A DNA stretch of 64,000 bases from Celeribacter neptunius. GTDB lineage: Bacteria; Pseudomonadota; Alphaproteobacteria; Rhodobacterales; Rhodobacteraceae. This document shows positions 4,596 to 51,448 of the stretch, one piece after another. The translations under genes were made by a program, and so were the position numbers. The notes beneath the pieces were generated by a model. It made no database searches, was not told the origin of the DNA, and saw only the letters and a program-made list of their open reading frames with translations. Positions within the stretch are counted from its first letter, which is position 1. Every line of letters begins with the position of its first letter. The stretch is from the NCBI RefSeq assembly GCF_900113955.1, contig NZ_FORH01000001.1, positions 1,046,395 to 1,110,394 on the forward strand, given 5' to 3'.

Positions 4596-4740
4596 GGAGC
4601 CCGTTGGCGACATTGGGAGCTGTCGCGCAACCGCCCGGAACAGCCACGAAGTGGCCCGGGCGTGCGCCGGACCGTCCCGGCGGTCAGGCGCACGCCCTCA
4701 CGTCAGTCCGGTGACCAATATCCACTTCGTCCCGCAAAGC
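4596..4740 (-). repeat. dispersed hairpin repeat, copy A (shortened)
   Basis: This fills most of the 314-base gap before tgt. Read on the minus strand it keeps both signature hairpins. Hairpin 1 (4663-4692) has stems GCGCC/GGCGC and GACCG/CGGTC around the CCGGGA loop. Hairpin 2 has outer stem CCCGG/CCGGG and inner CCA-CTTCG-TGG. The 5' half seen in the longer copies is missing. The flanks are a plus-sense GAGCCCGTTGGCGACATT (4597-4614) and TCCCGCAAAGC (4730-4740), so the copy looks rearranged. Confidence 0.7.
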
Positions 4741-4816
4741 AGATGTCGCACCCTTCCCCAAAAGTGCGGAACCCGCCCCTTCCGGGACGGGTTCGCATGT
4801 CAGGATCGCGCGGAAA

Positions 4817-6178
4817 TCACTCCGCCGCTTCGATCGTTGCCTTGGCATCTTCGGGGATCGCCAGAGACAGGATGATCGCCGACAGGCCCGCGATGGTGAT
4901 CGGCGCCGCGAAGACCTGCTTGAGGAAGGTCGGCAGGTTCTGGGTCGCGTCCGGCACCAGCGTCACGCCGAGCGCCAGACCAAAGGACACGGCCATGATA
5001 TAGACCCGGCGCAGGGTGATTTCCTCCGCAGAGAGAATGCGGATACCGGCCACGGCGATGGTCGAGAACAGCACCAGCGTGGCGCCGCCCAGAACCGGCT
5101 TCGGAATGATCAGAAAGAAGGTGCCGATCACCGGGAACAGCCCGAGAATGACCAGAAAGCCCCCCATGTACATCCCCACATGCCGTGAGGCGACGCCGGT
5201 CATCTGAATGACGCCGTTGTTCTGCGAAAATGTCGTGTTCGGGAAGGTGTTGAAAATCGCCGCCAGCGCCGAGTTGACGCCATCGCCCAGCACACCGCCC
5301 TTGATCCGTTTCATGTAGAGCGGGCCTTCGACCGGCTGGCCGGAGATCACCGAGTTTGCAGTCAGGTCCCCCGAGGTCTCGATCGCTGTGACGAGATAGA
5401 GAAAGGCCAGCGGAATGAAGAGGCCGAAATCAAAATCAAAACCGTATTTGAACGGGATCGGCATGGCAAAGAGCTGCGCCGATTTCAACAGACCGAAGTT
5501 CACCAAGCCAAAGAAGCTCGCCACAATCGTGCCGACGATCAGCCCGATCATGATGGCGGAGATCCGGAGCATCGGCTTGCCGATGAAGGTCATCACCAGA
5601 ATGATCGCCACCACCAGCGTGCCCAGGAGCAGATAGAGCGGCTTGCCGAGATCTTCGCCCGCCATGGCACCGCCGGCAAAATCGGTAAAACCGGCCTTGA
5701 TCAGCGACAGCCCGATCACGGTGATGACGATGCCGGTGACCGTGGGGGTGATGATGCGTTGCAGCTTGTCCAGAAATTGCGACAGGATGATCTCGACCAG
5801 CGAGCCGACGAGGCACAGCCCGAAAATCATCGCGAGGATATCTTCCGGCGTGCCGCCGCGCCCCTTGACCGCGAAGCCTGCAGCGAGAATGGCGCCGAGG
5901 AACGCAAAAGACGTCCCTTGCAAAGACAACAGCCCGGAGCCCACCGGGCCGATGGTCTTGCATTGAATGAAGGTCGCCACGCCAGAGACGAAAAACGCCA
6001 TGGCGATCAGGTAAGGGGTGTATTCCCCCAGCCCAAGCGCCCCGCCGATGATCAGCGACGGCGTGGCAATCCCGACGATCGAGGCCAAGACGTGCTGTAC
6101 CGCGGCCAGCGCCGCCTTGGGCGGTGGCGGCACATCGTCGAGCTTATAGACCAAAGGCATGAATTCTTGCTGGCTCAT
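4817..6178 (-). CDS. NCS2 family purine (xanthine/urate-type) permease
   Basis: Inner-membrane nucleobase:cation symporter, 453 residues. Twelve to fourteen hydrophobic segments run through the whole length. The NCS2 signature QNNGVIQMTGVASRHVG is of the XanQ/UacT (xanthine or urate) kind rather than UraA. The acidic helix with AIETSGDLT (TM8 motif) is present. The start MSQQEFMPL is preferred because the reading frame further upstream is low-quality and AGAAG precedes this ATG. It stands alone between repeat copies A and B. Xanthine or urate is inferred from the motif; the exact substrate cannot be read. Confidence 0.88.
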   Translation of the reverse strand: MSQQEFMPLVYKLDDVPPPPKAALAAVQHVLASIVGIATPSLIIGGALGLGEYTPYLIAMAFFVSGVATFIQCKTIGPVGSGLLSLQGTSFAFLGAILAAGFAVKGRGGTPEDILAMIFGLCLVGSLVEIILSQFLDKLQRIITPTVTGIVITVIGLSLIKAGFTDFAGGAMAGEDLGKPLYLLLGTLVVAIILVMTFIGKPMLRISAIMIGLIVGTIVASFFGLVNFGLLKSAQLFAMPIPFKYGFDFDFGLFIPLAFLYLVTAIETSGDLTANSVISGQPVEGPLYMKRIKGGVLGDGVNSALAAIFNTFPNTTFSQNNGVIQMTGVASRHVGMYMGGFLVILGLFPVIGTFFLIIPKPVLGGATLVLFSTIAVAGIRILSAEEITLRRVYIMAVSFGLALGVTLVPDATQNLPTFLKQVFAAPITIAGLSAIILSLAIPEDAKATIEAAE

Positions 6179-6390
6179 CTTCTGATTTCCCGTAAAATTA
6201 TTCCTGCCCCGAGCCTGCGCCGGGGGCCTCTGTAACGAAAGCGTTACAAAGCCCGGTCTCGGGAGACAGCGCGAATGGTGCGGGATTTGCGCAAGAAACG
6301 GGCATGTTTGCGGCAATCTGCACAAGCGCGCCCCGTTCTGAGGTCCCGTTAGAGCCTATGGGGCGTGGCGCCAACGAAGGCGAACCTTGA

Positions 6391-6603
6391 GCCCTGTGGG
6401 GGCATTCGCCTGTCGGCGCGGAACAAGGCGAAGCCGCCGCGCCTGCGGTCATGCTGAAAGCGTGCCTAAGGCATGACCTGTCCCCGCAGGCTGGCGCATT
6501 TCACTGGCGCGCAAGAGATTGAACTTCCACGGGCTTGGCTGAGATAAAGCGTAGACCTCTTAGGTCAAAGCGCCATCCCACAGGCAGGCGTGTCACCGCC
6601 CCG
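6391..6603 (-). repeat. dispersed hairpin repeat, copy B
   Basis: This occupies the middle of the 483-base gap 6179-6661, which otherwise holds only the permease leader. On the minus strand it reads GGTGACACGCCTGCC, the GACCTaagAGGTC hairpin, the CTTTAT block, then an altered hairpin 1 region with an extra palindromic segment (GGTCATGCC...GCATGACC). Hairpin 2 is GGCGCGG/CCGCGCC with a TTCG loop at 6415-6448. A motif normally found at the 5' end (GAGCCCTGTGGGGGCATTCG, 6391-6410) lies inverted beyond hairpin 2. Confidence 0.75.
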
Positions 6604-6661
6604 GTTTCACCAGCCGAACGCCCGCTCAGTCCGTAACGCAGACGTGCCGGGGTTCCCTCGC

Positions 6662-7834
6662 TCAGCCTTTCGTCACATCGTGATCGTAGAGCCAGGAGAA
6701 CCGTTCCACCGCCTGTTTCGGCGCGATCTGACCGGCGAGACGCAGCGCCGCATGACCGAGGAAGCGTTTCGCCCCGCTCATGTGATAATTCCGGGCATTG
6801 GCGTTGGCGGCATCGATGACCCGCACGACGCGGGATCGCCGCTTGGCCTGATAGGCCGGCAGGGCCTGTTCAAGCGGCAGGGTCCCCAGACAATCCGCCA
6901 GCACCCAGGCATCTTCCAGCGCCATATTGGCGCCCTGGGCCAGGAACGGCAGGGTCGGATGCGCCGCATCGCCCAGAAGCGCGGTGCGGTCCGAATGCCA
7001 GCGCAATGCCACCGGATGGCGGAACAGCCCCCAGCGCGAGACCTCCTCGACCCGGCTCAGAAGCGCTTTCACCCCCGGGCCGAAATTGGCGAAATTGCGC
7101 ATCATCTCGGCCGGATCGCCCGTATGATGCCAGCCTTCTTCGACCCAGTCCTCGCACTCTTCGACGGCAACGATATTGATCAGGCTGCCCTTTCTCAGCG
7201 GATAGCTCACGACGTGACGGCCCGCCGCCATATGCACCATCGCCACCGGGTCCTCATTGCCAAGCGCCGGCACCGTGGCGCGCCAGGCGGTCTGGCCGGT
7301 AAAGAACGGCTTCGCCGGCCCGTTGAGCATTGGCCGCAGCTTGGAATGGAGCCCGTCGGCGCCGATCACCACGGCGTGGCGCGCCTCTGCACGCCCCCCT
7401 GCGCCATCGGCAAATGTCAGGCTCACCCCGTCCGGATCGCCATGGATCTCCGCAACCGTATGGGACAGGCGGATCTCGACACCGGCCTCACGCGCGCCGT
7501 CTTCCAGAAGCGCGATCAGGTCGGCGCGATGCATCAACAGGAAATCATCATCGGGCCGCGCCACGGTAAAATCGAGATGCAGCACCTCGCGCCCCATATA
7601 GCCGTCCATCAGCCGCACGCCCTCGGAGCGCACCGATTTCGAGACCGCATCGAGCCCGAGAGCTTTCAGCACCCGCGCGCCGTTGGGCGTGATCTGCAGG
7701 CCCGCGCCCACCTCGGTGATCTCGGGCGCCTGCTCATAGACGGTGACCTTGGCGCCCCTGAGCGCCAATGCCCGCGACACGGCCAACCCGGCCACACCTG
7801 CGCCCAAGACCGCGATATCCTGACCGATCAACAT
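6662..7834 (-). CDS. FAD-dependent aromatic monooxygenase (salicylate/urate hydroxylase-like)
   Basis: Class A flavoprotein monooxygenase, 390 residues. The N-terminal Rossmann motif is GAGVAGL (about residues 10-16), the DG motif is VIGADGLHSKLR, and the FAD-ribityl motif is RTALLGDAAHPTLPF followed by QGANMALEDA. The start MLIGQDIAVLG places the GxGxxG at the usual depth, and GGGAG lies about 10 bases upstream. The family includes salicylate, 3-hydroxybenzoate and urate (HpxO) hydroxylases. A purine permease lies next downstream on the same strand, but repeat copy B and nearly 500 bases separate them. A urate role is therefore only a suggestion. Confidence 0.88.
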   Translation of the reverse strand: MLIGQDIAVLGAGVAGLAVSRALALRGAKVTVYEQAPEITEVGAGLQITPNGARVLKALGLDAVSKSVRSEGVRLMDGYMGREVLHLDFTVARPDDDFLLMHRADLIALLEDGAREAGVEIRLSHTVAEIHGDPDGVSLTFADGAGGRAEARHAVVIGADGLHSKLRPMLNGPAKPFFTGQTAWRATVPALGNEDPVAMVHMAAGRHVVSYPLRKGSLINIVAVEECEDWVEEGWHHTGDPAEMMRNFANFGPGVKALLSRVEEVSRWGLFRHPVALRWHSDRTALLGDAAHPTLPFLAQGANMALEDAWVLADCLGTLPLEQALPAYQAKRRSRVVRVIDAANANARNYHMSGAKRFLGHAALRLAGQIAPKQAVERFSWLYDHDVTKG

Positions 7835-8070
7835 AGCATAGCGCTCCCTTTTTCGTTTCTCGTCCCCCGATGTCGCGACTGTAACCGTGCCTGAAATAAA
7901 AAACACCGGGAGATCTCCCGGTGTCTGTCATATTTTTGCACAAAGCTCACGGGCACAAATTGCCGCGAGAAACCATGTCGCAGCGGGATTTGGCGCATTT
8001 CGGAAATGACGCCTGCCGCGCCATGACCGCATCAGGCAATCATGGCAGCAACATTCATCCGCCGCAGGTC

Positions 8071-8493
8071 TCAGTCGTCGCGATGGACCTTTTCGCGGCG
8101 TTCGTGGCGCTCCTGGGCTTCGAGCGTCATGGTGGCGATCGGACGCGCGTCGAGACGTTTCAGCGAAATCGGTTCGCCGGTCACTTCGCAATAGCCGTAT
8201 TCGCCCTCGTCGATCCGGCGCAGGGCGGATTCGATCTTGGTCACCAGCTTGCGCTGCCGGTCGCGGGTGCGCAGCTCGAGCGCCCGGTCGGTTTCCTCGG
8301 AGGCGCGGTCGGTGATGTCGGGAATATTGCGGGTGCTGTCCTGCAGCCCCTCGATGGTGTGGCGGCTCTCGTCCAGCAGTTCCGCCTTCCAGGCCAAAAG
8401 CTTGCGACGAAAATATTCGAGCTGACGCTCATTCATGAATGGTTCGTCCTCGGCGGGACGATAATCATCAGGCAGAAAAACCTCAGCCTTCAT
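8071..8493 (-). CDS. dksA: RNA polymerase-binding stringent-response factor DksA
   Basis: Binds the RNA polymerase secondary channel and, with ppGpp, reprogrammes transcription. 140 residues from MKAEVFLPDD. The coiled-coil tip motif DxxDxA is intact (Asp59, Asp62, Ala64 in IPDITDRA), followed by ELRTRDRQRKL. The C-terminal zinc finger is degenerate: only one Cys remains in YCEVTGEPI and the second CxxC is absent, as in zinc-independent DksA proteins of Rhodobacter. A second in-frame start, MADNIQNS at 8550, has an equally good GGAGGG site and would add 19 residues. I chose the shorter form because its sequence opens like rhodobacterial homologues. Confidence 0.95.
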   Translation of the reverse strand: MKAEVFLPDDYRPAEDEPFMNERQLEYFRRKLLAWKAELLDESRHTIEGLQDSTRNIPDITDRASEETDRALELRTRDRQRKLVTKIESALRRIDEGEYGYCEVTGEPISLKRLDARPIATMTLEAQERHERREKVHRDD

Positions 8494-8683
8494 AGTGCTC
8501 ACCTCTGTCGTGGTCGCGCCTGCGGCAGAATTTTGAATGTTGTCAGCCATAAGGCACCCTCCAATTGCGGCTCGTTTACCCCTTTTGCCCCGGGATGTCA
8601 CGTCACAATCTCGGCTCCCTTGCACCTTTCCTGCCCCGCGCTATGATCTCCGGCAATCCCAGCCGACATAAGGTCCGTGCCCG

Positions 8684-9526
8684 ATGAAATTCACCTCCAC
8701 CGAGAGCTATGTCGCCCCTGCGGATCTCTCCGTCGCGGTCAATGCCGCGATCGCTCTGGAACGGCCCCTGCTTGTGAAGGGCGAGCCCGGCACCGGCAAG
8801 ACCGAACTGGCCCGACAAGTGGCCGCCTCGCTCGGGCTCACGATGATCGAGTGGAATATCAAATCCACCACCCGCGCCCAGCAAGGGCTCTATGAATACG
8901 ATGCGGTCTCGCGGCTCCGGGACAGCCAGCTGGGCGATCCCCGGGTCGAGGACGTCGGCCATTATATCAAAAAAGGCAAACTTTGGCAGGCGTTCGAAGC
9001 GCCCGAAAAAGTCGTGCTTCTGATCGATGAGATCGACAAGGCCGATATCGAGTTTCCGAATGATCTGTTGCAGGAGCTCGACAAGATGGCCTTCCATGTC
9101 TACGAGACCGGTGAAACCGTCGCCGCGTACCAGCGCCCGGTGGTGATCATCACCTCGAACAACGAAAAGGAATTGCCCGACGCCTTCCTGCGTCGCTGCT
9201 TCTTCCATTACATCCGTTTCCCGGACATGGAGACGATGAAACAGATCGTCGAGGTGCATTTCCCGGGGCTGAAAGCCGAGCTCCTGAGCGCCGCGCTGAC
9301 GCAGTTCTACGAGATCCGCGACACCCAGGGGCTGAAAAAGAAACCCTCGACCTCGGAAGTGCTCGACTGGCTGAAACTCCTCCTGGCCGAAGATCTGTCG
9401 CCCGAGGACCTCAAGCGTGACGGGATCAATGCCCTGCCGAAACTCCACGGCGCACTTTTGAAGAACGAACAGGACGTGGCCCTGTTCGAACGCTTGGCAT
9501 TTCTGGCCCGCGGACAGCGCCGGTAG
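8684..9526 (+). CDS. MoxR-type AAA ATPase
   Basis: AAA+ ATPase of the MoxR group, 280 residues, cytoplasmic. Walker A is GEPGTGKT at residues 33-40, Walker B is VVLLIDEIDKAD, sensor 1 is ITSNNEKEL and the arginine finger is LRRCFFHY. MoxR ATPases usually act as chaperones with a VWA-domain partner encoded next door, often a CoxE-like protein in Rhodobacterales. Here the next gene is on the opposite strand and is unrelated, so the partner must lie elsewhere. It diverges from dksA across a 190-base gap. Confidence 0.93.
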   Translation: MKFTSTESYVAPADLSVAVNAAIALERPLLVKGEPGTGKTELARQVAASLGLTMIEWNIKSTTRAQQGLYEYDAVSRLRDSQLGDPRVEDVGHYIKKGKLWQAFEAPEKVVLLIDEIDKADIEFPNDLLQELDKMAFHVYETGETVAAYQRPVVIITSNNEKELPDAFLRRCFFHYIRFPDMETMKQIVEVHFPGLKAELLSAALTQFYEIRDTQGLKKKPSTSEVLDWLKLLLAEDLSPEDLKRDGINALPKLHGALLKNEQDVALFERLAFLARGQRR

Positions 9527-9547
9527 CGGCGCGGCCCCGCCGGCGGC

Positions 9548-9868
9548 TTACTCGGCCTTGGTCTCGGCAGCTTTCGTGGCGGCTTTGGTGGCGCGCGGCT
9601 TTTTCGCAGCGGGCTTTTTCGCCGCCGGCTTCTTGGCTGCGGTGGTTTTCGGCGCGGCCGCCTTGGTCGCCGCCGGTTTTGCCGCAGTTTTCGCCGGAGC
9701 TTTGGTGGCAGCCTTCTTGCGCGGGGCGCGCTTCGGTTTCGGCGGGCTCAGGGCCTCCACCGCCATATGCCAATGCGCCTCGTCACGGCCTTCCGGCTGG
9801 CCCTCTTCAAGCCAGAGGTAATAGGCCGCTTCCTGGATCTTGGTGTCTTCAACTGTCGTCTGGGTCAT
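9548..9868 (-). CDS. DUF2934 protein with histone H1-like Lys/Ala tail
   Basis: 106 residues from MTQTTVEDTKIQ. Residues 10-40 (IQEAAYYLWLEEGQPEGRDEAHW) are a DUF2934 segment, a short helical module typical of alphaproteobacteria. The rest is a low-complexity tail of AAKKPA and ATKA repeats, like histone H1 and bacterial H1-like DNA-binding proteins. Tail binding to nucleic acid is inferred from charge; the role is unknown. It converges with the MoxR gene with 21 bases between stops. An upstream extension to 9946 is open but lacks family support. Confidence 0.85.
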   Translation of the reverse strand: MTQTTVEDTKIQEAAYYLWLEEGQPEGRDEAHWHMAVEALSPPKPKRAPRKKAATKAPAKTAAKPAATKAAAPKTTAAKKPAAKKPAAKKPRATKAATKAAETKAE

Positions 9869-10160
9869 TCTCAACTCGCTGTCAGTCTCAAATTTCTGAA
9901 CGGGATGATCGTTACTGCGGGTACTATTCCCTCTCAAATCTAACATTCGGGTGAATTCAAGCGCGAAGAAATCCGCAGTGTCCCACGGTTCGGCAGGCGT
10001 TCGCGCCGATCAGTCCGATTTTTCGCGTATTTTTTGAGCGCATCTGCGGAAAATTCGGCGAGAAAATTCAGGCACGGGCTTGCACATCCTGTCTCGGCTG
10101 CGCCAGAAGGTTAACGAAACCCCGTTCAATCCCCATTAAATCCCGGTCACAGGCTCTCTC

Positions 10161-10628
10161 ATGTCCAGCGCGCACTCCACCTCTCCTGCCCTCACCATCC
10201 GCCCCCTCAGAGCCGAAGACCGCCCCGAATGGCAGGCGCTCTGGCAGGCCTATCTCACCTTCTACGAGAGCAGCCTGCCACCGGAGATCTATGAGGCGAC
10301 ATTTGCCCGCAATGTCGATCCCGAGGCCAAGGAACGCGGGGCATTCGTCGCCGAGCGCGACGGCGCGCTGATCGGTCTCGTGCATTACATTTTCCACGCC
10401 CATAACTGGCATATCGAAGATGTCTGTTATTTGCAGGATCTCTACGTCTCCGAAGCGGCGCGGGGCACCGGCGCCGGGCGCGCGCTGATCGAAGCGGTGT
10501 ACCGGCGCGCCGATGAGAATGGCACGCCGACGGTCTACTGGACGACCCAGGAGTTCAATGAAACCGCGCGCAAGCTCTACGATCGGATCGGCAAGCTGAC
10601 GCCCTTCATCAAATATCAGCGTCCCTGA
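10161..10628 (+). CDS. GNAT family N-acetyltransferase
   Basis: 155-residue acetyl-CoA-dependent acetyltransferase. The acetyl-CoA-binding motif A is RGTGAGRALIEAV (around residues 100-112), preceded by the beta-4 strand VCYLQDLYVSEAA. The C-terminal YWTTQEFNETARKLYDRIG is motif B. This layout is like GNATs acting on small amines or amino groups, but the substrate cannot be told. It is monocistronic, convergent with the thiolase. The 292 bases upstream (9869-10160) hold no recognisable gene. Confidence 0.9.
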   Translation: MSSAHSTSPALTIRPLRAEDRPEWQALWQAYLTFYESSLPPEIYEATFARNVDPEAKERGAFVAERDGALIGLVHYIFHAHNWHIEDVCYLQDLYVSEAARGTGAGRALIEAVYRRADENGTPTVYWTTQEFNETARKLYDRIGKLTPFIKYQRP

Positions 10629-10667
10629 CCGGACCGCGCTGCCCCGCGCCGAGCGCAACAGCGCAGA

Positions 10668-11864
10668 TCAGCCGACAAGTTCCACCGCCACGGCCGTCGC
10701 CTCGCCACCGCCGATACAGAGGCTGGCAATGCCGCGCCTGCCACCGCGGGCGCGCAGCGCGTGGATCAGGGTGACGAGGATGCGCGCGCCGGTGGCGCCG
10801 ATCGGATGGCCGAGCGCACAGGCGCCCCCGTTGACATTGAGCCGGTCGCGCGCAATGCCCAGTTCCTTCGCCGCCGCCATGGCGACCACGGCAAAGGCCT
10901 CGTTGATCTCGAACAGATCGACATCTCCGACCGTCCAGCCCACTTGGCTGAGCAGTTTCTCAATCGCCGGGATCGGCGCGGTGGTGAACCATTCGGGCTC
11001 TTGCGCATGCGTCCTGTGGCCGAGAATGCGGGCCAGGACCGGCAGTCCCTCTGCCTCGGCTGTCGATTTTGCACAGAGCACCAGTGCCGCCGCGCCATCG
11101 GCATTGGCCGAAGAACTCGCGGCGGTGATCGTCCCGCCTTCGCCAAAGGCGCTGCGCAGGGTCGGGATCTTTTCCGGCGCGATCTGCGGCGGGCGCTCGT
11201 CATGGCTGACCACGACCTCGCCCTTGCGGGTCTTTACGCTCACCGGCGCGCATTCCGCCTCGAACGCCCCGCCGCCCACCGCCGCCTGGGCGCGCTCGAG
11301 CGTCTCGATGGCATAGGCATCCTGTTCCGCCCGGCTGAAGCCGTAGCGCGCCGCCGTGGCCTCGCCGAACTCGCCCATGGGCCTGCCGCGCTGATAGGCA
11401 TCCTCGAGCCCGTCCATCATCATGTGATCGATCACTTCGGAACTGCCGGCCTTGCGCCCCTTGCGCATCTCCTTGAGCAGGAACGGCGCGCCGGACATCA
11501 CCTCCATGCCGCCGGCCACGACGATCTTCGCGCTGCCGGCCCGGATCAGATCATGGCCCAGCATCACCGCTTTCATGCCGGACCCGCAGACCTTGTTGAT
11601 CGTGGTGGCGCCGGTGGCATCGATGAGCCCTGCCCCACGCGCCGCCTGACGTGCCGGCGCCTGACCGAGCCCGGCCGGCAGGACGCAGCCCATCAACACC
11701 TCAGAGACCTGATCCATGCTCAGCCCGGCGTCGCCAAGTGCTGCGCGGATCGCCACCGCGCCCAGCTCGGGCGTCGGCATATCGGCCAGAGCCCCCATGA
11801 AGGCGCCGAGCGGGGTGCGGCGGGCGGCGGCAATGACGATCGGGTCGAACGGGCTGTCGGTCAT
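10668..11864 (-). CDS. acetyl-CoA C-acetyltransferase (thiolase)
   Basis: Thiolase of 398 residues that condenses or cleaves acyl-CoAs (acetoacetyl-CoA or beta-oxidation type). The acyl-accepting Cys93 sits in INKVCGSGMKAV, the histidine motif in GGACALGHPIGATG and the second active Cys in SLCIGGGEA. The length suits the degradative/biosynthetic acetyltransferase group. It is transcribed away from a TetR gene, and the shared promoter carries paired TAGATT sites, so control by that TetR is likely. No other fatty-acid gene is adjacent, so the physiological direction is open. Confidence 0.95.
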   Translation of the reverse strand: MTDSPFDPIVIAAARRTPLGAFMGALADMPTPELGAVAIRAALGDAGLSMDQVSEVLMGCVLPAGLGQAPARQAARGAGLIDATGATTINKVCGSGMKAVMLGHDLIRAGSAKIVVAGGMEVMSGAPFLLKEMRKGRKAGSSEVIDHMMMDGLEDAYQRGRPMGEFGEATAARYGFSRAEQDAYAIETLERAQAAVGGGAFEAECAPVSVKTRKGEVVVSHDERPPQIAPEKIPTLRSAFGEGGTITAASSSANADGAAALVLCAKSTAEAEGLPVLARILGHRTHAQEPEWFTTAPIPAIEKLLSQVGWTVGDVDLFEINEAFAVVAMAAAKELGIARDRLNVNGGACALGHPIGATGARILVTLIHALRARGGRRGIASLCIGGGEATAVAVELVG

Positions 11865-11890
11865 GATGAAGATCCTCCTGAATTTTCATT

Positions 11891-11943: not shown

Positions 11944-11980
11944 ACGAAAGCCATCACGACATCAGAAGCGGGATCAGATC

Positions 11981-12535
11981 ATGCGCATGAGCCGGGCCGA
12001 GGCCGCCGAAAACCGGAAGAAGGTCGTCCAGACCGCCAGCGAGCTGTTTCGCGAGCAAGGCTATGACGGCATTGGCATCGCCGGGCTGATGGCCGCCGCC
12101 GGGCTGACCCATGGCGGGTTTTACAAGAAATTCGCCAGCAAGGAGGCGCTGATCACCGAGGCGACCGCCGCCGGGCTGGCGGAAAATGCCGTGGCCTGGC
12201 AGACGGTCCTGGATCGCGCGGGAGACGAACCGCTCGCGGATTTTTCCCGTTGGTATCTGTCAGAAGATCACATCACCCACCGGGACAAGGGCTGTACCTA
12301 TGCGACGCTGGCCTGCGAGGCGCCACGGCACGGGCCGGACTTGCGCCAGGCTTTCGAGGACGGGCTGAAAACGAGTGTCGATCAGCTCTCCGGTGCCAGC
12401 GGGATGTCGCAGGCGGAGGCGATCCGCGAGATGTCCCGCTTGATCGGCGCCCTGATCCTCGCCCGCGCGGTCGAGGACCCGGCGCTTGCGGAACAGATCG
12501 TCTCCGCCAATCTGGAGAGGAAGACCCAGCGGTAA
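11981..12535 (+). CDS. TetR family transcriptional regulator
   Basis: 184-residue one-component repressor. The N-terminal helix-turn-helix spans about residues 9-55 (AENRKKVVQTASELFREQG, then MAAAGLTHGGFYKKFASKEAL). The C-terminal ligand domain with CTYATLACEAPRHGPDLR and REMSRLIGALILARAV resembles the LmrA/YxaF-type C-terminal family. It is divergent from the thiolase over a gap with matching operators, so it probably represses itself and the thiolase in response to an acyl-CoA or xenobiotic; the ligand is a guess. Repeat copy C begins 9 bases after its stop. Confidence 0.92.
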   Translation: MRMSRAEAAENRKKVVQTASELFREQGYDGIGIAGLMAAAGLTHGGFYKKFASKEALITEATAAGLAENAVAWQTVLDRAGDEPLADFSRWYLSEDHITHRDKGCTYATLACEAPRHGPDLRQAFEDGLKTSVDQLSGASGMSQAEAIREMSRLIGALILARAVEDPALAEQIVSANLERKTQR

Positions 12536-12543
12536 GGCTCGAA

Positions 12544-12769
12544 GAGGCCATTGGGGACATTCGCCATCCAGCTCAAGCCGTGACAAGCCTGCCCGTGGGG
12601 TGGCGCTCTGAGAATTGTACGATGCGGTTTATGGTGCAAAAGACATCCACGATCTGAGGTCTTTGCGCGGATGACAATGCGCCTCCCCGCCGGGACGGGC
12701 AGGCGCAGGCGCGGCGGCCTTCGGCCTTGTTCCGCGCCGAAAGCGAATGTCCCGTCCGTCCCGCAAAGC
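12544..12769 (+). repeat. dispersed hairpin repeat, copy C
   Basis: The order is GAGGCCATTGGGGACATTCG, a CCTGCCCGTGGGG block, GGTTTATGGTGC, hairpin 1 (12678-12705; stems GCGCCT/AGGCGC and CCCG/CGGG around CCGGGA), hairpin 2 (12708-12738; GGCGCGG/CCGCGCC with inner GGCC-TTC-GGCC), then TCCCGCAAAGC (12759-12769). It fills nearly all of the gap between tetR and the next gene. Confidence 0.85.
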
Positions 12770-12803
12770 GGCGCTCCAGCCGGCGCGACAAACCGTGCCC
12801 GGC

Positions 12804-19767: not shown

Positions 19768-19804
19768 ACGAATGGCGCGCGGTGACAATTTCGAAGACGG
19801 GGGG

Positions 19805-20034
19805 ATGAGCCCTTTGGGGGCATTCGAGCGATGAGCGCCTGCGCAGGCCCGTGGGTGAGCGCCGAGCCTTCAGAGGTCATCACTTTATACTTGCCAAATC
19901 CGTGAAACTTCAATGCGTTGTGCGCGGTTGGCAATGCGCTCGCCCGCCGGAACGGGCCAGCGCAGGCGCGGCGGCTTCGCCTTGTTCCGCGCCAGATGCA
20001 CGTCGTTCGGACGCCCGCTAAGTCCCGCAAAGCG
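19805..20034 (+). repeat. dispersed hairpin repeat, copy D (full length)
   Basis: The core 19805-19993 is 189 bases, the same length as copy E. Order: ATGAGCCCTTTGGGGGCATTCG, CAGGCCCGTGGGTG block, AGAGGTCATCACTTTATACTTGCC, hairpin 1 (19937-19964; GCGCT/AGCGC and GCCCG/CGGGC around CCGGAA), hairpin 2 (19967-19993; GCGCGG/CCGCGC, loop CTTCG), then AGTCCCGCAAAGC (20022-20034). The 393-base gap 19740-20132 holds this copy and the oxyR promoter; the remaining 100 bases show nothing. Confidence 0.88.
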
Positions 20035-20132
20035 GTCATGCAAGACGTTGACCAGCCCCCTTCCCGCTGCCCCCTTTCTTCGCCAGAGTCTTTGCACGGG
20101 CCTCATCCGGGGGGCTTCGCCCCGGCTCTCGC

Positions 20133-26478: not shown

Positions 26479-26540
26479 GCTATGCCAAAAGCTCTTTGAC
26501 TGCCTGATGCGACGTTTCATGTTCAGCCCTCAGAGCCGCG

Positions 26541-26769
26541 ATGAGCCCATTGGGGACATTTGGATACTGAGCGCCAGCGCTGGCCCGTGGGGGAGCGCTT
26601 TGACCTCTGTGGTCGCCGCTTTATGCTTGCCAGATCCGTGTAGGATCAATCCGTTGAGCGCGGCTGAGAATGCGCTCGCCCGCCGGAACGGGCCAGCGCA
26701 GGCGCGGCGGCTTCGCCTTGTTCCGCGCCTGATAGAACTTCGTTTGAACAGCAGAAAAGTCCGCAAAGC
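26541..26769 (+). repeat. dispersed hairpin repeat, copy E (full length)
   Basis: The core 26541-26729 is 189 bases. Order: ATGAGCCCATTGGGGACATT, TGGCCCGTGGGGGAGCGC, GACCTCTGTGGTC, GCTTTATGCTTGCCAGATCCGTG, hairpin 1 (26673-26700; GCGCT/AGCGC, GCCCG/CGGGC, loop CCGGAA), hairpin 2 (26703-26729), then AGTCCGCAAAGC. It lies in the 471-base gap 26423-26893; apart from a terminator at the left, the rest of the gap shows nothing. Confidence 0.88.
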
Positions 26770-26893
26770 CCCCTCCCCCCACAGGCCCGCTCTCCTGCGC
26801 ATCGTTCATTTTCCGCGACGGGGGTTTGCGCAAGTTCCGGTTTGTCTTTGACCCTCTGCTGGCGCACATCTGTCACCAAAACGGAGAGACGCC

Positions 26894-45270: not shown

Positions 45271-45432
45271 GCCCTGAACCATTAGAGGCGATGAAAAAGA
45301 TCAGGCGCGGCCCCGTGTCGCGCCGGTTTTCTGGGGGGATTTTTTCAGGGCATTTGTCAGGGATCTTTCGGAAGAGATCCTGCGTCGCACATCGCTCTCC
45401 GCCCTGAAAGCACTCCGCCCTGAAAATACCAG

Positions 45433-45454
45433 AATGAATTAACCTTAATTCATT
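45433..45454. promoter_or_regulatory. 22-base perfect palindrome upstream of the MQISS pair
   Basis: Arms AATGAATTAA and TTAATTCATT around CC, 100 bases before the first MQISS start, in an AT-rich stretch. Contains two TTAA cores separated by only two bases, so it is not a standard CtrA box (TTAA-N7-TTAA). Confidence 0.55.
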
Positions 45455-45555
45455 GAATACACGATGAAATATATGAAAACTTTTACCTGTTAGGCGTGTT
45501 TTAAGCATCCCTCTTCTAGACTCTCCCAAAACGGAGAGCAGAAGGTTTCCCGTCG

Positions 45556-46152
45556 ATGCAGATCTCATCTGCCTATCAGCAAGCCGCGTTCATGGGCGCT
45601 ACGAAAGACACGTTTTCCCTGCCGGCGCGCGCCGCCGGGGCTGTGTCCGCCATGTCCGGATCTGCCGGGCTGCCCTCCGCCCAGGCCAACGCCGCAGACC
45701 CGGTCGACAGCGCCCTCCCCCAGACATCCAAGCAATCCGCGATCCGCGCCGCACGCGACATCTTCGCGCCCTATGATCTGACGGCGATTTCCCCGACTGA
45801 AATCGACCAGTTGACCCGCGATCTCAAGACCGCGCGCTTCGACGATCTGGGCTTTGTCCTGGGCTTGGAGCGCGAGGGCGCGAGCTACCGGCAGGAGATG
45901 GAAAACTCGGGCAGCGTCTATGGCATCGGCGATGCCGGGTTCAACGCCGACGCCCCGGTCAATCTGATCGACAAGACCCGCGCCGATCTGGCGCTGGCAC
46001 AGCGCTATGGTCAGGACACCGAGCGGCTTTCGCACCAGCTTGAGAAACTCGAGGTGGCGCAGATGAGCCGCGTTTCGCTGCCCCCCGCTGCGCGACCGCA
46101 ACTCGCAGAGAACCTGATCCTGCTTCAGACCGGGCAGACCCCGGGAACCTAG
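45556..46152 (+). CDS. uncharacterised protein, MQISS paralogue 1, 198 aa
   Basis: No function recognised. N-terminus MQISSAYQQAAFMG, then an Ala/Ser-rich disordered stretch, then a helical domain IFAPYDLTAISPTEIDQLTRDLKTARFDDLGFVL, and near the end DLALAQRYGQDTERLSHQLEKLEVAQ. The YDL-x-x-ISP-x-EID-x-L block and the trailing helix are shared with the next gene, so the two are tandem paralogues. The block resembles short proteins found near flagellar genes in other alphaproteobacteria, from memory only. Confidence 0.78.
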   Translation: MQISSAYQQAAFMGATKDTFSLPARAAGAVSAMSGSAGLPSAQANAADPVDSALPQTSKQSAIRAARDIFAPYDLTAISPTEIDQLTRDLKTARFDDLGFVLGLEREGASYRQEMENSGSVYGIGDAGFNADAPVNLIDKTRADLALAQRYGQDTERLSHQLEKLEVAQMSRVSLPPAARPQLAENLILLQTGQTPGT

Positions 46153-46188
46153 TTTCATCACATACCGTATTGTCCAGAAGGGATTTAC

Positions 46189-46767
46189 ATGCAGATTTCC
46201 AGCAGCATTCAAAACCTTATGTCAGCAACGAGCAGTAAAACCGCCGCCGCCGATGCAGGGACACAGGCCAGCACGGCGCGCTTTACCGTCACGCCTGATC
46301 CACTCTCACCAGAGTCACTTTCATCGGGGCCACTCTCATCGGAGCCCTCCTCGAAAGACCGGATTTATGCCGATTACGACCTGAACAACATTTCGCCGCG
46401 CGAAATCGATGAGCTTGCAGACCGGTTGCGCGAGAACGGCAGCTACGAGTTCAAAGAGATGATGATGCTGGAGACCCGCGGCGAGCGCTTTACCCAGCAT
46501 CTGCAAGACTCCTTGCGCGATGCCGGCATTCTCGACGAGATCACCTTCGAGCCTACCCGGCGCTTTGACTACCTCGGCTCGGCAGCGGATCAGATCGAAC
46601 TGTCACGACGTCACGGCGACCCGACCGAGATGGCACAGGACAATCTCGACGCGCTGCGGGACATCCATCAGCGCTCCGAGGAGATCCGAACCGCAGAGCG
46701 CGCGCCCGTCGGCACAGGTGCGGCATTGACCCGTTCTCTGTTCGCGTTTCAAACCGCTGAAATTTGA
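46189..46767 (+). CDS. uncharacterised protein, MQISS paralogue 2, 192 aa
   Basis: N-terminus MQISSSIQNLMSATSS, a Ser/Pro-rich linker with a repeated PLS-S-x-P pattern, then YADYDLNNISPREIDELADRLRENG and ending near QIELSRRHGDPTEMAQDNLDALRDI. Same architecture as the preceding gene, 36 bases away. Both lack a signal peptide and have a disordered N-terminal third. They may be substrates of an export system or structural adaptors; no evidence decides this. Confidence 0.78.
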   Translation: MQISSSIQNLMSATSSKTAAADAGTQASTARFTVTPDPLSPESLSSGPLSSEPSSKDRIYADYDLNNISPREIDELADRLRENGSYEFKEMMMLETRGERFTQHLQDSLRDAGILDEITFEPTRRFDYLGSAADQIELSRRHGDPTEMAQDNLDALRDIHQRSEEIRTAERAPVGTGAALTRSLFAFQTAEI

Positions 46768-46883
46768 CCTCACGCGCCTGATCTGCCGCTATTTTCGGCA
46801 TGCGCCCGGCGGGAGATGTCTTCTTGCCCCGGAGCGTTGATTTTTCGCTGGACAGGTCAATAATACTGTCCTATCTCGACGAT

Positions 46884-47507
46884 ATGCCAGCACCCGTCCC
46901 CATTCCCCTCAGCCCGCAAAAGCACAGCCTTCTCGAGGATGCGCAGGGTTTCTCCATTGCGCTCATCACCACGGCGATCGGGCTGACGATCATTTCGCAG
47001 CTGGGCTTCATCACCGGTCAGACCGCGGGTCTGGCGCTGGTGATTTCCTATCTCACCGGCTGGTCGTTTTCCTGGGTGTTCTGGCTGATCAACATCCCCT
47101 TCTATGTCCTGGCGTATTTTCGCATGGGGGTGGAATTCACCGTCAAATCCGCGCTCTGCGTCACCATCCTGTCTGTGCTCATCGCGGTGATCCCGCAATG
47201 GATGACATTCGAACATCTCAACCCGCTTTTCGGCACCGTGGCCTTCGGCATCCTCACCGGCTACGGGCTTTTGGGCACCTTCCGGCACAAGGGGTCGCTG
47301 GGCGGGCTGGGCGTCGTGGCGCTTTACGCGCAGGACCGTTTCGGCATCCGCGCCGGCTATGTCCAGCTCGGCTTCGACGCCGTGCTCTTTGCCGTGGCAT
47401 TCTTCCTTTTCGAACCGAGCCGGGTCCTGTATTCGCTCTTGGGCGCGGTGATCCTCAACGGGGTGATCGCCTTCAATCACCGCCGCGATCGTTATATCGG
47501 CGAATGA
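46884..47507 (+). CDS. YitT family membrane protein (DUF161), first copy
   Basis: 207 residues with five or six membrane helices. DAQGFSIALITTAIGLTIISQLGFITGQTAGLALVIS, later GYGLLGTFRHKGSLGGLGVVALY, is the YitT pattern (ITGQxxG, GGSLGG). The ATG at 46884 has only a weak site. The C-terminus NHRRDRYIGE is shared with the next gene, so they are tandem duplicates. The role is unknown; YitT proteins are thought to be transporters. Confidence 0.88.
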   Translation: MPAPVPIPLSPQKHSLLEDAQGFSIALITTAIGLTIISQLGFITGQTAGLALVISYLTGWSFSWVFWLINIPFYVLAYFRMGVEFTVKSALCVTILSVLIAVIPQWMTFEHLNPLFGTVAFGILTGYGLLGTFRHKGSLGGLGVVALYAQDRFGIRAGYVQLGFDAVLFAVAFFLFEPSRVLYSLLGAVILNGVIAFNHRRDRYIGE

Positions 47508-47534
47508 GACCCTAACAGCGAAACGGGACGAGAG

Positions 47535-48149
47535 ATGCAGACAGAGGTGCAAAACGCCGAAACACATACGTGGTTCGAGGATCTTCAGGGCTTTCTTTTC
47601 GGCACGTCCATGTGCGCCTTTGCCCTGGTGATGCTGCGCTCTCTCGGGCTGATCACCGGCCAGACCGCCGGGCTGGCGATCCTGATTTCCTATGTCTTCG
47701 GCCTGCCCTTTGGTTGGGTGTTCTTTGTCGTCAACCTGCCGTTCTACTGGTTTGGCTACAAACGCATGGGCAAGACCTTTGTCGGCAAGACCTTCATCAA
47801 CGTGGCGCTGATCTCGGTCCTGTCCGAATGGTTCCCGAGCCTGGTGGATTTCAGCGACCTGACGCCGTGGTTCGGCGCCATCATCATCGGCTTCATGACC
47901 GGCGCCGGTCTCATGGCGATTTTCCGGCACGGCGGCTCGCTCGGCGGGCTGGGCATCCTGGCGCTCTATCTGCAGGACGCCACCGGGTTCAAAGCCGGCT
48001 ATGTGCAGCTCGCCTTTGACGCCTGCCTGTTTGCCGTGGCGTTCTTCTTCCTGCCGCTGCCGCAGGTGCTCTATTCGCTTCTGGGCGCCGTGGTGGTCAA
48101 TCTGGTGATCGCCATCAACCATCGCCGCGACCGCTATATCGCGATGTAA
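47535..48149 (+). CDS. YitT family membrane protein (DUF161), second copy
   Basis: 204 residues. WFEDLQGFLFGTSMCAFALVMLRSLGLITGQTAGLAILIS and AIFRHGGSLGGLGILALYLQDATG follow the same order as the preceding gene, ending NHRRDRYIAM. The gap between them is 27 bases. A small multidrug-resistance gene starts 12 bases after its stop. The clear parallel with the first copy indicates an old tandem duplication kept in one operon. Confidence 0.9.
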   Translation: MQTEVQNAETHTWFEDLQGFLFGTSMCAFALVMLRSLGLITGQTAGLAILISYVFGLPFGWVFFVVNLPFYWFGYKRMGKTFVGKTFINVALISVLSEWFPSLVDFSDLTPWFGAIIIGFMTGAGLMAIFRHGGSLGGLGILALYLQDATGFKAGYVQLAFDACLFAVAFFFLPLPQVLYSLLGAVVVNLVIAINHRRDRYIAM

Positions 48150-48161
48150 GAGGACCGGAGC

Positions 48162-48497
48162 ATGCCCGCGCATTATATCTACCTCGTCCTCGCGATCTCG
48201 CTCGAGGTCATCGGCACCACGGCCATGGCCGCCTCTCAGCAATTTACCCGGCTGATCCCGGTGGTCATTCTGGTGATCTCCTACGGGCTGTCCTTTTACT
48301 TCCTGTCGCTGACGCTCAAAGTGGTGCCCGTGGGCATTGCCTATGCGGTCTGGTCGGGGCTGGGCATCGTTCTGATCTCGATGATCGGGCTGGTGTTTCT
48401 CGGGCAAAAGCTCGACCTCCCCGCGATCCTCGGCATGGCACTGATCATTCTCGGTGTGCTGGTGATCCACCTGTTCTCGAAAACCGCCGGGCATTAA
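48162..48497 (+). CDS. small multidrug resistance (SMR) efflux protein
   Basis: 111 residues, four helices. The essential Glu15 is in AISLEVIGTTAMAAS, and the family motifs SYGLSFYFLSLTLK (helix 2) and GIAYAVWSGLGIVLI (helix 3) are present. It belongs to the EmrE/SugE superfamily and is closest in look to EmrE, exporting cationic compounds by proton exchange. It is the last gene of the YitT-YitT-SMR run. Its stop lies inside a 16-base tandem duplication. Confidence 0.92.
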   Translation: MPAHYIYLVLAISLEVIGTTAMAASQQFTRLIPVVILVISYGLSFYFLSLTLKVVPVGIAYAVWSGLGIVLISMIGLVFLGQKLDLPAILGMALIILGVLVIHLFSKTAGH

Positions 48498-48511
48498 AAC
48501 CGCCGGGCATT
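48480..48511 (+). repeat. 16-base tandem duplication at the SMR stop codon
   Basis: AAAACCGCCGGGCATT occurs twice in direct succession (48480-48495 and 48496-48511) with no mismatch. The stop TAA is made at the junction; without the second copy the next codon would be TGA, so the protein end is unchanged. Confidence 0.85.
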
Positions 48512-48641
48512 GAGGCCGAAACCACCGCTCTGAGCGCCGCATCGCCGGGTTATTCCGCCTCTGCGCGCTTTTAACGCTGGCCTTTTCGCCGAAAGCCCGT
48601 TACCCGCAAGCCAACTCATTCTAGACGGACGTACGCACCCT

Positions 48642-50459
48642 ATGGATCTTCGCAATATCGCCATCATCGCTCACGTTGACCACGGCAAGACCACGCTCGT
48701 GGACGAGCTTCTCAAACAGTCGGGCACGTTCCGCGAAAACCAGGCCACCACCGAGCGCGCCATGGATTCCAACGATCTGGAACGTGAACGCGGCATCACC
48801 ATTCTGGCGAAAGCCACTTCGGTCGAGTGGAAAGGTCACCGCATCAACATCGTCGACACGCCCGGCCACGCCGACTTTGGCGCAGAAGTCGAGCGCATCC
48901 TCTCCATGGTCGACGGGGTTGTCCTTTTGGTGGACGCCGCCGAAGGCCCGATGCCGCAGACCAAATTCGTGACCTCGAAAGCGCTGGCTCTGGGCCTGCG
49001 CCCGATCGTCGTGCTGAACAAGGTCGACAAACCCGACGCCGAGCCGGACCGCGCGCTGGACGAATGTTTCGATCTCTTCGCCTCGTTGGACGCCAATGAT
49101 GATCAGCTCGATTTCCCGCATCTCTACGCCTCCGGCCGCTCCGGCTGGTGTGACGCCGAGCTCGACGGGCCGCGCAAGAACCTCGACGCGCTGTTCAACC
49201 TGATCCTGAACCACGTCCCTGCGCCGCGTCAGCTCAAGCATCAGGACGAGCCGTTCAAAATGCTCGCCACCACGCTGGGCTCCGACCCGTTCCTGGGCCG
49301 CCTGCTCACCGGTCGCGTTGAAAGCGGCAAGATCAAAGCCGGCGCCACCGTGCAGGCTCTGACCCGCAACGGCCAGAAGATCGAACAATTCCAGGTCAAG
49401 AAGATCCAGGCCTTCCGCGGTCTCGCCATGGCCGAGATCGAGGAAGCCATCGCCGGCGATATCGTTTCGCTCTCCGGCATGACCAAGGCGACCGTGTCCG
49501 ACACGATCTGTGCCCTCGAAGTCGATGAGCCGCTCGAAGCCCAGCCGATCGATCCGCCGACCATCACCGTCACCTTCGGCATCAACGACAGCCCGCTGGC
49601 CGGTCGCGAAGGCAAAAAGGTGCAGTCGCGCGTGATCCGCGATCGTCTCATGAAAGAGGCGGAGACCAACGTCGCGATCAAGGTCAAGGACACCCCCGGC
49701 GGCGAGGCCTTCGAGGTCTCCGGCCGTGGCGAATTGCAGATGGGCGTGTTGATCGAGAACATGCGCCGCGAAGGCTTCGAACTGTCGATCTCCCGCCCGC
49801 AGGTGATCATGCGCGAGGAAGACGGTCAGCGCATGGAGCCGGTCGAGGAAGTCACGGTTGACGTCGACGACGAATATTCGGGCGCTGTGATCGAAAAGCT
49901 CACCGGTACCCGCAAGGGCGAGCTGACCGAGATGAAACAGCAGAACGGCAAGACGCGGATCATCGCCCATGTGCCGTCGCGCGGTCTCATCGGCTATCAC
50001 GGCGAGTTCCTCACCGACACCCGCGGCACCGGCGTGCTGAACAGGGTGTTCCACGGCTGGACCCCGTTCAAAGGCGCGATCCCGGGCCGTCGTCAGGGCG
50101 TGCTGATCTCGATGGAAGATGGCGAGACCGTCGCCTATGCGCTGTGGAACCTCGAGGAGCGCGGCAAGCTCTTCCTCGGCGCCCAAGCCAAGGTCTACCA
50201 GGGCATGATCATCGGCGAGCATTCGCGCGACAACGATCTCGAGGTGAACCCGCTGAAAGGCAAGAAACTCACCAACGTGCGTGCCTCGGGCACCGATGAC
50301 GCGGTGCGTCTGACCACGCCAACCACCCTGTCGCTGGAAGAGGCCATCGCCTATATCAACGACGACGAGCTGGTGGAAGTGACGCCCGAGAGCGTGCGCC
50401 TGCGCAAACGCTATCTCGACCCGCATGAGCGCAAGCGCATGGCGAAAGCCGCGCAGTAA
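48642..50459 (+). CDS. typA: translational GTPase TypA/BipA
   Basis: Ribosome-associated GTPase needed for large-subunit assembly under stress or cold. 605 residues. G1 is [10 protein letters not shown] (10-19), the switch segment is [15 protein letters not shown]3 is [10 protein letters not shown], and G4 is LNKVD. The EF-G-like domains follow, then the TypA-specific C-terminus [33 protein letters not shown]. Monocistronic with its own terminator. Confidence 0.98.
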
Positions 50460-50484
50460 GCCCCTCATTGGTGCAGAAATTTGG

Positions 50485-50514
50485 AAAGACCCGCCCCTAC
50501 GGCGGGTCTTTTTA
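50485..50514 (+). terminator. intrinsic terminator of typA
   Basis: Stem AAGACCCGCC/GGCGGGTCTT with a five-base loop, then TTTT, 26 bases after the stop. Confidence 0.92.
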
Positions 50515-50596
50515 CATCTGCGCGCAGAACCTGTGCACGCAAACCGCTTAGGATCGGGGCCCATCTGCGCTATCTATGGTTCAAAGGAGACCAGCC

Positions 50597-51184
50597 ATGC
50601 GCAAGATCCAGAGCCAAGGGGTTCATCACATCACCATCGTCGGAAGCGATCGCCAGACCAGCATCGATTTCTGGGAGGGCTTGCTTGGCATGCCCTTTGT
50701 TTTTGATCAGCCCAATCTCGACGATCCGGAACAGGGCCATCTCTATTTCGATCCCGGCGACGGACGCTTGATCACGGTGTTCACCAATGAAAGCCGCAAG
50801 CCCGGGCGTCACCGGATAGATCAGGGACCGGGAAGCTTGCATCACCTGGCCTTGAATGTCTCGAAAGTCACCTTCGACCAGGTGGTGGAGCGGCTGGGCG
50901 CGCGTGGCGTGGAGCATTCCGGCGTCAAGGATCGCGGCTTCATGGACAGTATCTATTTCCGCGAGCCCAATGGCATGCTGATCGAACTTGCTTCCTACCG
51001 GTTCGAACCACCGGCGGGTTACACCCATGTGGATGTGCTGCACCGCGCCCATCTGATCCGGGTGGCCGCAGGCGACGATCATATCGACAAGGTGCACCTG
51101 GCCGACGCGATCGAGGCGCTGGTGGCAGAAGGCACGAAGAGCCTGTCCGCGGATCGCAGCCCGAAAACCCCTTTCGCGAAATAA
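50597..51184 (+). CDS. VOC (glyoxalase/dioxygenase) superfamily protein
   Basis: 195 residues. Two beta-alpha-beta-beta-beta units: VHHITIVGSDRQTSIDFWEGLLG and SLHHLALNVSKVTFDQVVERL. Possible metal ligands are a His of VHHIT, a His of LHHLA and Glu of MLIELASYR. The ATG at 50597 has AAAGGAG seven bases upstream. This is the ring-cleaving dioxygenase/glyoxalase layout; the substrate is unknown. The C-terminal 40 residues are extra to the domain. Repeat copy F starts right after it. Confidence 0.88.
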   Translation: MRKIQSQGVHHITIVGSDRQTSIDFWEGLLGMPFVFDQPNLDDPEQGHLYFDPGDGRLITVFTNESRKPGRHRIDQGPGSLHHLALNVSKVTFDQVVERLGARGVEHSGVKDRGFMDSIYFREPNGMLIELASYRFEPPAGYTHVDVLHRAHLIRVAAGDDHIDKVHLADAIEALVAEGTKSLSADRSPKTPFAK

Positions 51185-51223
51185 TGTCCCGGAATGCGAC
51201 CGGGCCGGGAAACTGTGGCCGTC

Positions 51224-51448
51224 GGCCTTGTGGGACCTTCTGCCATTCGAATAAAGCGCAACCACCCGGAATCAAGCCGAAGGCGCCGGGCGTGCGCCGG
51301 ACCGTCCCGGCGGTCAGGCGCATTGCCATCTTCGTGCAACGATTAGGTCTTTCTCACATTTGGTAGGCATAAAGCGCAACGATCAAAAGTCGCAGCGCCT
51401 GCCCGCGGTCCGGCGCTCGCCCTCATGACCAATGTCCCCCAAGGCCTC
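51224..51448 (-). repeat. dispersed hairpin repeat, copy F
   Basis: On the minus strand: GAGGCCTTGGGGGACATTGG, GCGGGCAGGCGC block, GCGCTTTATGCCTACC, then hairpin 1 (GCGCC/GGCGC and GACCG/CGGTC around CCGGGA; 51294-51321), hairpin 2 (CCCGG/CCGGG with inner GCC-TTC-GGC; 51266-51291) and GGTCCCACAAGGCC. It fills most of the 335-base gap 51185-51519, together with the alaS-operon terminator at the right. Confidence 0.78.

Follow-up and report, generated by a model that had tools for sequence, protein, structure and literature searches.

The bacterial interspersed mosaic elements (BIME) of Escherichia coli, with their repetitive extragenic palindromes (REP), are mosaics of palindromes found at the 3' ends of genes and between convergent genes, and a role at 3' ends has been proposed for them. 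The RIME of rhizobia are intergenic mosaic palindromes of alphaproteobacteria. In the passages of PMC3116915 that describe them, REPIN, the REP doublets of Pseudomonas and other bacteria, consist of inverted palindromes around a spacer and form a hairpin in single-stranded DNA (ssDNA) or mRNA; the abstract calls REP doublets randomly distributed in extragenic space. The palindromes of the REPIN/RAYT system bear a GTAG or CGTC tag at their foot, according to PMC3733652. PMC2229807 presents CIR1-4 of Caulobacter, which are intergenic, around 110 bp long, contain two inverted repeats and GANTC sites, and are conserved between species, as well as YPAL/RU-2 of Yersinia, around 168 bp long and flanked by target duplications of 3-26 bp. 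Here, we describe a repeat family of Celeribacter neptunius that resembles all of these. It came to attention as six copies (A to F, Table 1) in intergenic gaps of a 64,000-nt stretch (assembly GCF_900113955.1, contig NZ_FORH01000001.1, positions 1,046,395 to 1,110,394), called the window below, which corresponds to C5:1046395-1110394 of the 4.4-Mb genome G000.

The copies belong to one structured, dispersed family that expands in particular lineages and that, in G000, is strongly biased towards the 3' ends of genes and the gaps between convergent genes.

A covarying stem-loop shared across genera

The family was searched for with R1, a covariance model (CM) of the 161-nt core made from 28 copies with a structure drawn by hand. 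In G000 (E<=1e-3, 150 candidates scored), R1 gave 107 matches, which correspond to 106 places on nine contigs once two adjacent matches at C5:769869-770054 are merged as one copy; 56 places are on the plus strand and 50 on the minus strand. This is the type of search that the preliminary description had proposed, with the absence of further copies as the outcome that would speak against a family, and it raises the number of places from six to 106. A 29-nt pattern of the second hairpin with at most 3 mismatches was found at 43 places in G000, and the reversed pattern, used as a control, at none.

Forty relatives were searched with stricter filters (71 candidates scored per genome), a setting under which G000 itself gives 72 matches. 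The 19 genomes of the same genus have between 0 and 9 matches each, five Rhodobacteraceae genomes of other genera between 1 and 14 each, and the 16 genomes from other families of the class have none. In a Rhodobacteraceae-wide sample of 198 genomes, one per genus and with G000 included (E<=1e-5), 90 genomes match; at least 13-14 matches were found in 16 genomes besides G000, and these counts are floors because only 14 candidates were scored per genome. Named carriers of plasmid-borne copies include Salipiger, Pacificitalea, Sulfitobacter and Leisingera, Celeribacter persicus has a match of 146.3 bits in record NZ_QAOH01000014.1, and arrays of three tandem cores with a spacing of 171-204 nt occur in other genera (L372, L395, L401). 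Carriage by phages was considered as well, and a blastn search with copy E had no match among 50,697 phage records. In searches of Rfam, no family passed its gathering threshold in the window or in 8 loci from relatives, and none matched copy E at E<=1; no description of the repeat was found in the open-licence full-text literature searched.

The core of about 161 nt consists of a stem of about 21 bp with a 6-nt bulge, which closes a loop of 72-76 nt, and of a second hairpin that follows it (copy E serves as the type example in Table 1). The right arm of the stem is the reverse complement of the left arm, either arm by itself forms an imperfect palindrome as well, and the columns that are mismatched within the arms pair between the arms and covary. 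Among 31 distinct copies from relatives, 22 of the 31 pairs show two-sided changes. In an alignment of 37 copies from 28 genera, which are the best-scoring loci of 28 of the 90 matching genomes, two-sided changes are seen in 24 of 31 pairs and 96.3% of the cells are paired; sliding the partner by 1-3 columns reduces the pairing to 34-51%. The long-range stem can also be compared with the local hairpins that each arm could form alone (36 of the 37 copies, a truncated row having been dropped, as for the loop): it is kept in 95.7%, versus 77% for the left and 87% for the right local hairpin, and two column pairs are long-range in 36/36 copies where the local alternatives reach 21/36 and 12/36. 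The long stem-loop is thus kept across the 28 genera examined in detail, and this covariation bears out the earlier judgement that the repeat is too structured to be a random one.

The loop has conserved features of its own. The exact TTTAT stands about 20 nt into the loop in 31 of 36 copies, with a close variant at loop position 20-22 in the others, and CAAA directly precedes the right arm in 29 of 36. An unpaired motif of the TTTATnCC.GCCAAATCC-like kind, located for example at 26620-26640 of the window, is kept across genera. On the core strand, the ratio of G.U to A.C in relatives is 31:8 and 30:10 (P 3e-4 and 2e-3, values that are not independent tests because the alignments had been adjusted to this structure and consist of related rows). 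Covariation and the excess of G.U over A.C in relatives together suggest that the element would be maintained in a folded, single-stranded form with one polarity, as either RNA or ssDNA.

Gene context, end modules and occupied sites

Five copies (c001, c003, which is copy D, c033, c054 and c090) share more than 20 nt with a predicted gene and were excluded from the context counts. The remaining 101 of 106 copies in G000 lie in 60 convergent, 37 tandem and 4 divergent gaps, versus 15 convergent, 107 tandem and 60 divergent among the element-free gaps of the same loci, and the Fisher odds ratio for convergent gaps is 16. Distances to stop codons were taken from 79 copies of a two-ended set (n=84, selected by a rule that permits only one of each of the end modules X and Y described below, in either order): a stop codon lies at most 25 nt from the element at 70 of the 125 adjoining 3' ends, and in 14 of the 48 convergent gaps of this set the element is flush on both sides. 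In other genera, 26 usable loci out of 28 gave 14 convergent, 9 tandem and 3 divergent gaps, the other gaps of those loci being 1 convergent, 9 tandem and 9 divergent. A Salipiger match, for example, is separated by 15 and 13 nt from the stops of two facing RefSeq coding sequences (CDS), and a triple tandem array of Pacificitalea lies between facing CDS in a gene table that is incomplete.

The cores of G000 are flanked by a pair of related inverted modules, X (TTTGAGCCC.TTTGGGGACATT type) and Y (TTTGCGGGACGGAGCGGACATT type), which usually bring the element to about 230-250 nt. Independently of the selection rule, 94 copies were examined, and 67 of the 68 with both ends classified have one X and one Y; the core is oriented X-to-Y in 30 and Y-to-X in 37. 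A GAANGNCNG-like consensus stands immediately outside both ends, and similarity stops sharply about 10 nt beyond X and Y. The extents of the copies, which were set by an end rule, include these roughly 10 outer nt per side, which are conserved as a consensus yet not copied between recent pairs. X/Y-like ends are absent from the relatives, except in 3 of 32 rows (two places, both in G019), and because nearly all of the relatives' rows lack them, the core is probably the older unit. A third hairpin of 30 nt (GTCATGCC..GCATGAC type) is present in 27 of 106 copies (at most 7/30 mismatches), in both orientations and mostly in the right-arm region, and resembles a nested repeat of its own; copy B has one.

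The existence of a larger element with the same ends was also considered. Seven seemingly solo end matches were read over about 330 nt, and five of these are short or mosaic versions. For the end-only match at C18:180219, the surrounding 3-kb locus contains no partner end. The one at C9:19920 (L246 1501-2097) has a Y end and, 576 nt away, a weak X-like partner (5/21 mismatches), and the gene between them encodes an apparently secreted protein of 159 aa for which Pfam gave no match. This arrangement could be a cargo-bearing version or a product of chance.

The two closest cores are 99.4% identical and lie 56 kb apart on one contig, and the closest pair on different contigs is 98.2% identical. 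Ungapped comparison of ten pairs shows that similarity gives out at or close to X and Y, in some pairs already within a module, and that the flanks are unrelated. Comparisons with relatives at individual sites show the same gaps without the element. Among the alignments listed, copy D was not seen at the same gap in 8 relatives. Copy E is absent from its gap in 8 relatives, where the flanking aligned segments are separated by 39-218 nt versus 351-468 nt here. The core-only copy c091 occupies a stop-to-stop gap that measures 4 nt in four relatives; in two further relatives, other sequence adds 168 and 593 nt to this gap. At the c010 site, five relatives keep the terminator and have no element; at the c034 site, three relatives have other sequences between the same stops; and at the c032 site, three relatives have a small gene and other sequence instead. 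The near-identical cores on different contigs with unrelated flanks, the burst in one species and the absence in relatives at the compared sites support the idea that the element spreads within the genome by copying.

Gaps may also be occupied in more than one way. The close species G006 and G019 have three occupied gaps in common: in one, the two copies are near-identical; in another, the members are different and oppositely oriented; and in the third, they are strongly divergent. At the site of copy D, relatives have another recurring hairpin, of the GCCCTCGCAAGTGTGCGAGGGCGTTCGCGCC type (L289, L291, L293, L295, L299). Between the same two stops at the c034 site, G006 (L310) has an AT-rich palindrome of another kind, GCGTTTTTCG..CGAAAAACG.

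As to the window itself, the R1 scores of the six copies confirm that the six gaps hold members of one homologous family. The remaining R1 matches of the window with E values up to 0.22 are shadows of copies A, D, E and F on the reverse strand, and independent matches outside the copies have E values of at least 0.59. Copies D and E are equal in length, as had been noted, with a core of 161 nt and 248 nt overall; their cores are identical at 137 of 161 positions (z 47 against shuffled sequence). Copy A, with a core of 68 nt, has neither the CCCGTGGG nor the CTTTAT block; it matches copy F at 59 of 65 positions (z 20.9), and its pairwise similarity to copy B alone is not significant (z 1.0). 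The order of blocks first given for the family applies to C, D, E and F and fails for A and B, where the two end blocks have changed places with respect to the inner part, the inner core being on the minus strand and the X-to-Y frame on the plus strand. The statement that no copy lies inside a gene holds, the overlap of copy D with the upstream gene of the hexamer model having been removed by the alignment of relatives, which places the start codon of that gene at about 19739.

Table 1. Positions of the window copies, of the parts of copy E and of two members in related species (window coordinates unless a locus is named)
Feature	Position	Strand	Remarks
Copy A, short, loop-less	4584..4748	-	Core 4632-4699 on -; X left, Y right; CM 45.1 bits, E 5e-8
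Copy B, full, with extra 30-nt hairpin	6376..6647	-	Core 6415-6599 on -; X left, Y right; CM 101.7 bits
Extra hairpin of copy B	6448-6477		
Copy C, full, convergent gap	12531..12777	+	Core 12577-12738; CM 138.0 bits
Copy D, full, upstream of minus-strand gene starting at about 19739	19794..20041	+	Core 19833-19993; CM 177.5 bits
Copy E, full, downstream of terminator, between two plus-strand genes	26530..26777	+	Core 26569-26729; CM 175.2 bits
Copy E, left arm region of long stem	26569..26598	+	Pairs with right arm; two-sided changes across genera
Copy E, loop, 73 nt, with CTTTAT motif	26599..26671	+	72-76 nt in 35/36 copies, 28 genera
Copy E, right arm, an imperfect palindrome (hairpin 1 of the preliminary description)	26672..26699	+	
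Copy E, second hairpin, bulge TTGTTCC (hairpin 2 of the preliminary description)	26701..26729	+	Matched by the 29-mer pattern
Copy F, full, convergent gap	51217..51461	-	Core 51263-51424; CM 145.5 bits
Oppositely oriented members in one convergent stop-to-stop gap	L149 5990-6160; L150 6704-6983		G006 and G019

Transcript end, selfish repeat or both

The best explanation, to which we give about an even chance, is that this is a non-autonomous, REPIN/BIME-like element of the Rhodobacteraceae that spreads through copying and at the same time serves as a two-way transcript end. It would be copied in trans by an enzyme acting on the folded strand. According to the gene model of G000, it settles shortly after stop codons, with a preference for gaps between convergent genes. 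There, judging from its position, it would most likely act as a BIME-like hairpin boundary, setting the 3' end of each of the two facing transcripts and limiting antisense read-through, and in some gaps the element would be the sole sequence between two stop codons.

Several observations weigh against this explanation. Firstly, the U-tracts behind the hairpins of the element are weak at best. The possibility that the elements are strong intrinsic terminators was rejected: a lax scan was positive for 73/84 and a stricter one for 45/84, mostly with weak tracts, and these scans are not used as proof because the calls rest mostly on such tracts, for example the TTTAT inside the core. A strict intrinsic terminator already lies between the stop and the element at 26 of the 125 adjoining 3' ends, all 26 falling among the 41 such ends that are at least 46 nt from the element. 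Secondly, a copy lies between the genes for ribosomal proteins L23 and L2 in G004, G013, G014 and G016 (L094-L097; three L23 proteins and one L2 protein were identified by Pfam and the others by similarity), and since this gap is an odd place for a terminator, a simple terminator role is weakened. Sequence of variable length separates these ribosomal-operon copies from the L23 gene; a fifth relative, G015, has only the L2 side within its locus (L107), and the G000 copy c050 (L179) has the L23-side flank in common with the relatives' copies. Thirdly, relatives in the same genus, together with a few others, are less biased, with 13 convergent, 17 tandem and 1 divergent gaps (31 rows, one place being represented twice). 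The genes of G000 come from a home-made hexamer model, for which synteny at copies D and E was the sole check; the background consists of element-free gaps of at least 60 nt drawn from the same loci as the copies. Moreover, the raw ratio of G.U to A.C in the 76 aligned copies of G000 is 41:43, and it becomes 39:19 only without the two outermost pairs.

The evidence on spreading has similar weak points. Two of the five sites tried, c002 and c074, yielded no comparison. No target-site duplication longer than 2 bp was found relative to shuffled pairs in 84 copies, the excess of 2-bp duplications (12 versus 5.8) being no greater than the noise to be expected with so many offsets, and no transposase of the PF01797 type (RAYT-type, Y1) was found in G000, which is 99.99% complete, 5 of 14 control genomes being positive. 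On account of these two results, the mobiliser is missing. Insertion into a pre-existing hairpin was also tried as an explanation and rejected: complementarity between the 10-24 nt beyond one end and those beyond the other is no greater within a copy than between copies.

A tentative alternative, which we consider less probable, is a purely selfish REPIN-like element without a host function, whose 3' bias would come from the choice of target or from purging in promoters and operons. The burst in copy number in one species, the similar copies with unrelated flanks, the tandem arrays in other genera and the REPIN-like plan of inverted repeats are all consistent with it, as is the GAANGNCNG-type consensus at both ends, which a target preference would give. 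Purging alone, however, predicts an avoidance of divergent gaps, and not the excess in convergent gaps or the stop codons so often found within 25 nt. The gap that G006 and G019 fill with two different, oppositely oriented members also counts against this alternative. A bolder version of the two-way transcript end goes further, in that a selfish, single-strand-folding repeat found family-wide would be a mobile two-way terminator copied into convergent stop-to-stop gaps, exchangeable there, and both supplying and renewing transcript ends across the Rhodobacteraceae by means of a machinery other than RAYT; this we regard as doubtful.

A miniature inverted-repeat transposable element (MITE) derived from a classical DDE transposon, whose terminal inverted repeats would be X and Y, is improbable. 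One related, inverted end of each kind in 67/68 classified copies and a similarity between recent copies that fades at or near these ends are what such an element would have, but the lack of a longer target-site duplication, the near absence of X/Y-like ends in relatives, the clean empty site of core-only copy c091 in 4 relatives and the finding of no transposase between X/Y-like ends at two core-less end-only matches argue against it. About as improbable, finally, are dispersed small-RNA genes, each copy being transcribed as a structured trans-acting RNA: the one-polarity G.U excess in relatives, the conserved unpaired loop motif and the covariation over 28 genera would suit them, but there is no constant promoter flank, similarity ending about 10 nt outside X and Y, copy number ranges from 0 to more than 100 within one genus, and Rfam has no match.

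The family matters as an abundant structured element with strong covariation, matched in 90 of 198 Rhodobacteraceae genomes, with neither an Rfam match nor a description found in the open-licence literature. If the element does set transcript ends between convergent genes, it would show how selfish repeats can be built into the regulatory organisation of a genome, and gaps that hold an element in one species and lack it in a close one offer a test bed. If it is only selfish, the mobiliser itself becomes an open question, since the usual REPIN enzyme was not found in G000.

Comparison with described repeat families

The preliminary description had held that the repeat matches no named family. 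This stands with respect to the Rfam searches made and to the open-licence literature searched and falls short in another respect, because the general plan is that of the known dispersed palindromic intergenic repeats, the class of REPIN, BIME, RIME, CIR and YPAL (RIME and CIR being compared by description only); the wrong block order for copies A and B is a further reason why that first interpretation is only partly upheld.

YPAL/RU-2, as portrayed in PMC2229807, is similar in length, has internal inverted repeats, is not AT-rich, lies between genes and may affect upstream transcripts; the differences are the target duplications of 3-26 bp, which exceed the 2 bp that limits any duplication here, and the unrelated hosts. 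CIR, compared by the corresponding description, is likewise alphaproteobacterial, intergenic, built on two inverted repeats and conserved between species. Conserved GANTC sites, a feature of CIR in that description, are not shared: GANTC is at background in the cores of G000 (12 in 15 kb, the window having 0.78 per kb), and it occurs in 11/91 of these cores, 11/34 copies from relatives and 18/37 copies from other genera. A CcrM-linked CIR was rejected on account of this background level, and the family cannot be filed as CIR because GANTC is not conserved. RIME, as generally described, has in common with it the nature of an alphaproteobacterial intergenic mosaic of palindromes.

The likeness to REPIN, as described in PMC3116915, extends to inverted palindromes with a spacer, compensatory changes, dispersed extragenic copies and tandem clusters; the defining plan of two inverted imperfect palindromes with a spacer is present, and the arms covary. 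The differences are that the genome has no RAYT/PF01797 gene, that the loop is long and contains a conserved motif, and that there are a second hairpin, an X/Y frame and a strong bias towards convergent gaps. A RAYT-driven REPIN was rejected because PF01797 was not found in G000, and because no RAYT was found, the family cannot be filed as REPIN. BIME/REP, in its general description, is set apart by form, the present element being a single long stem-loop of near-constant length with a second hairpin and an X/Y frame; what the two have in common is their place in the genome, which is extragenic and mostly at 3' ends or between convergent genes.

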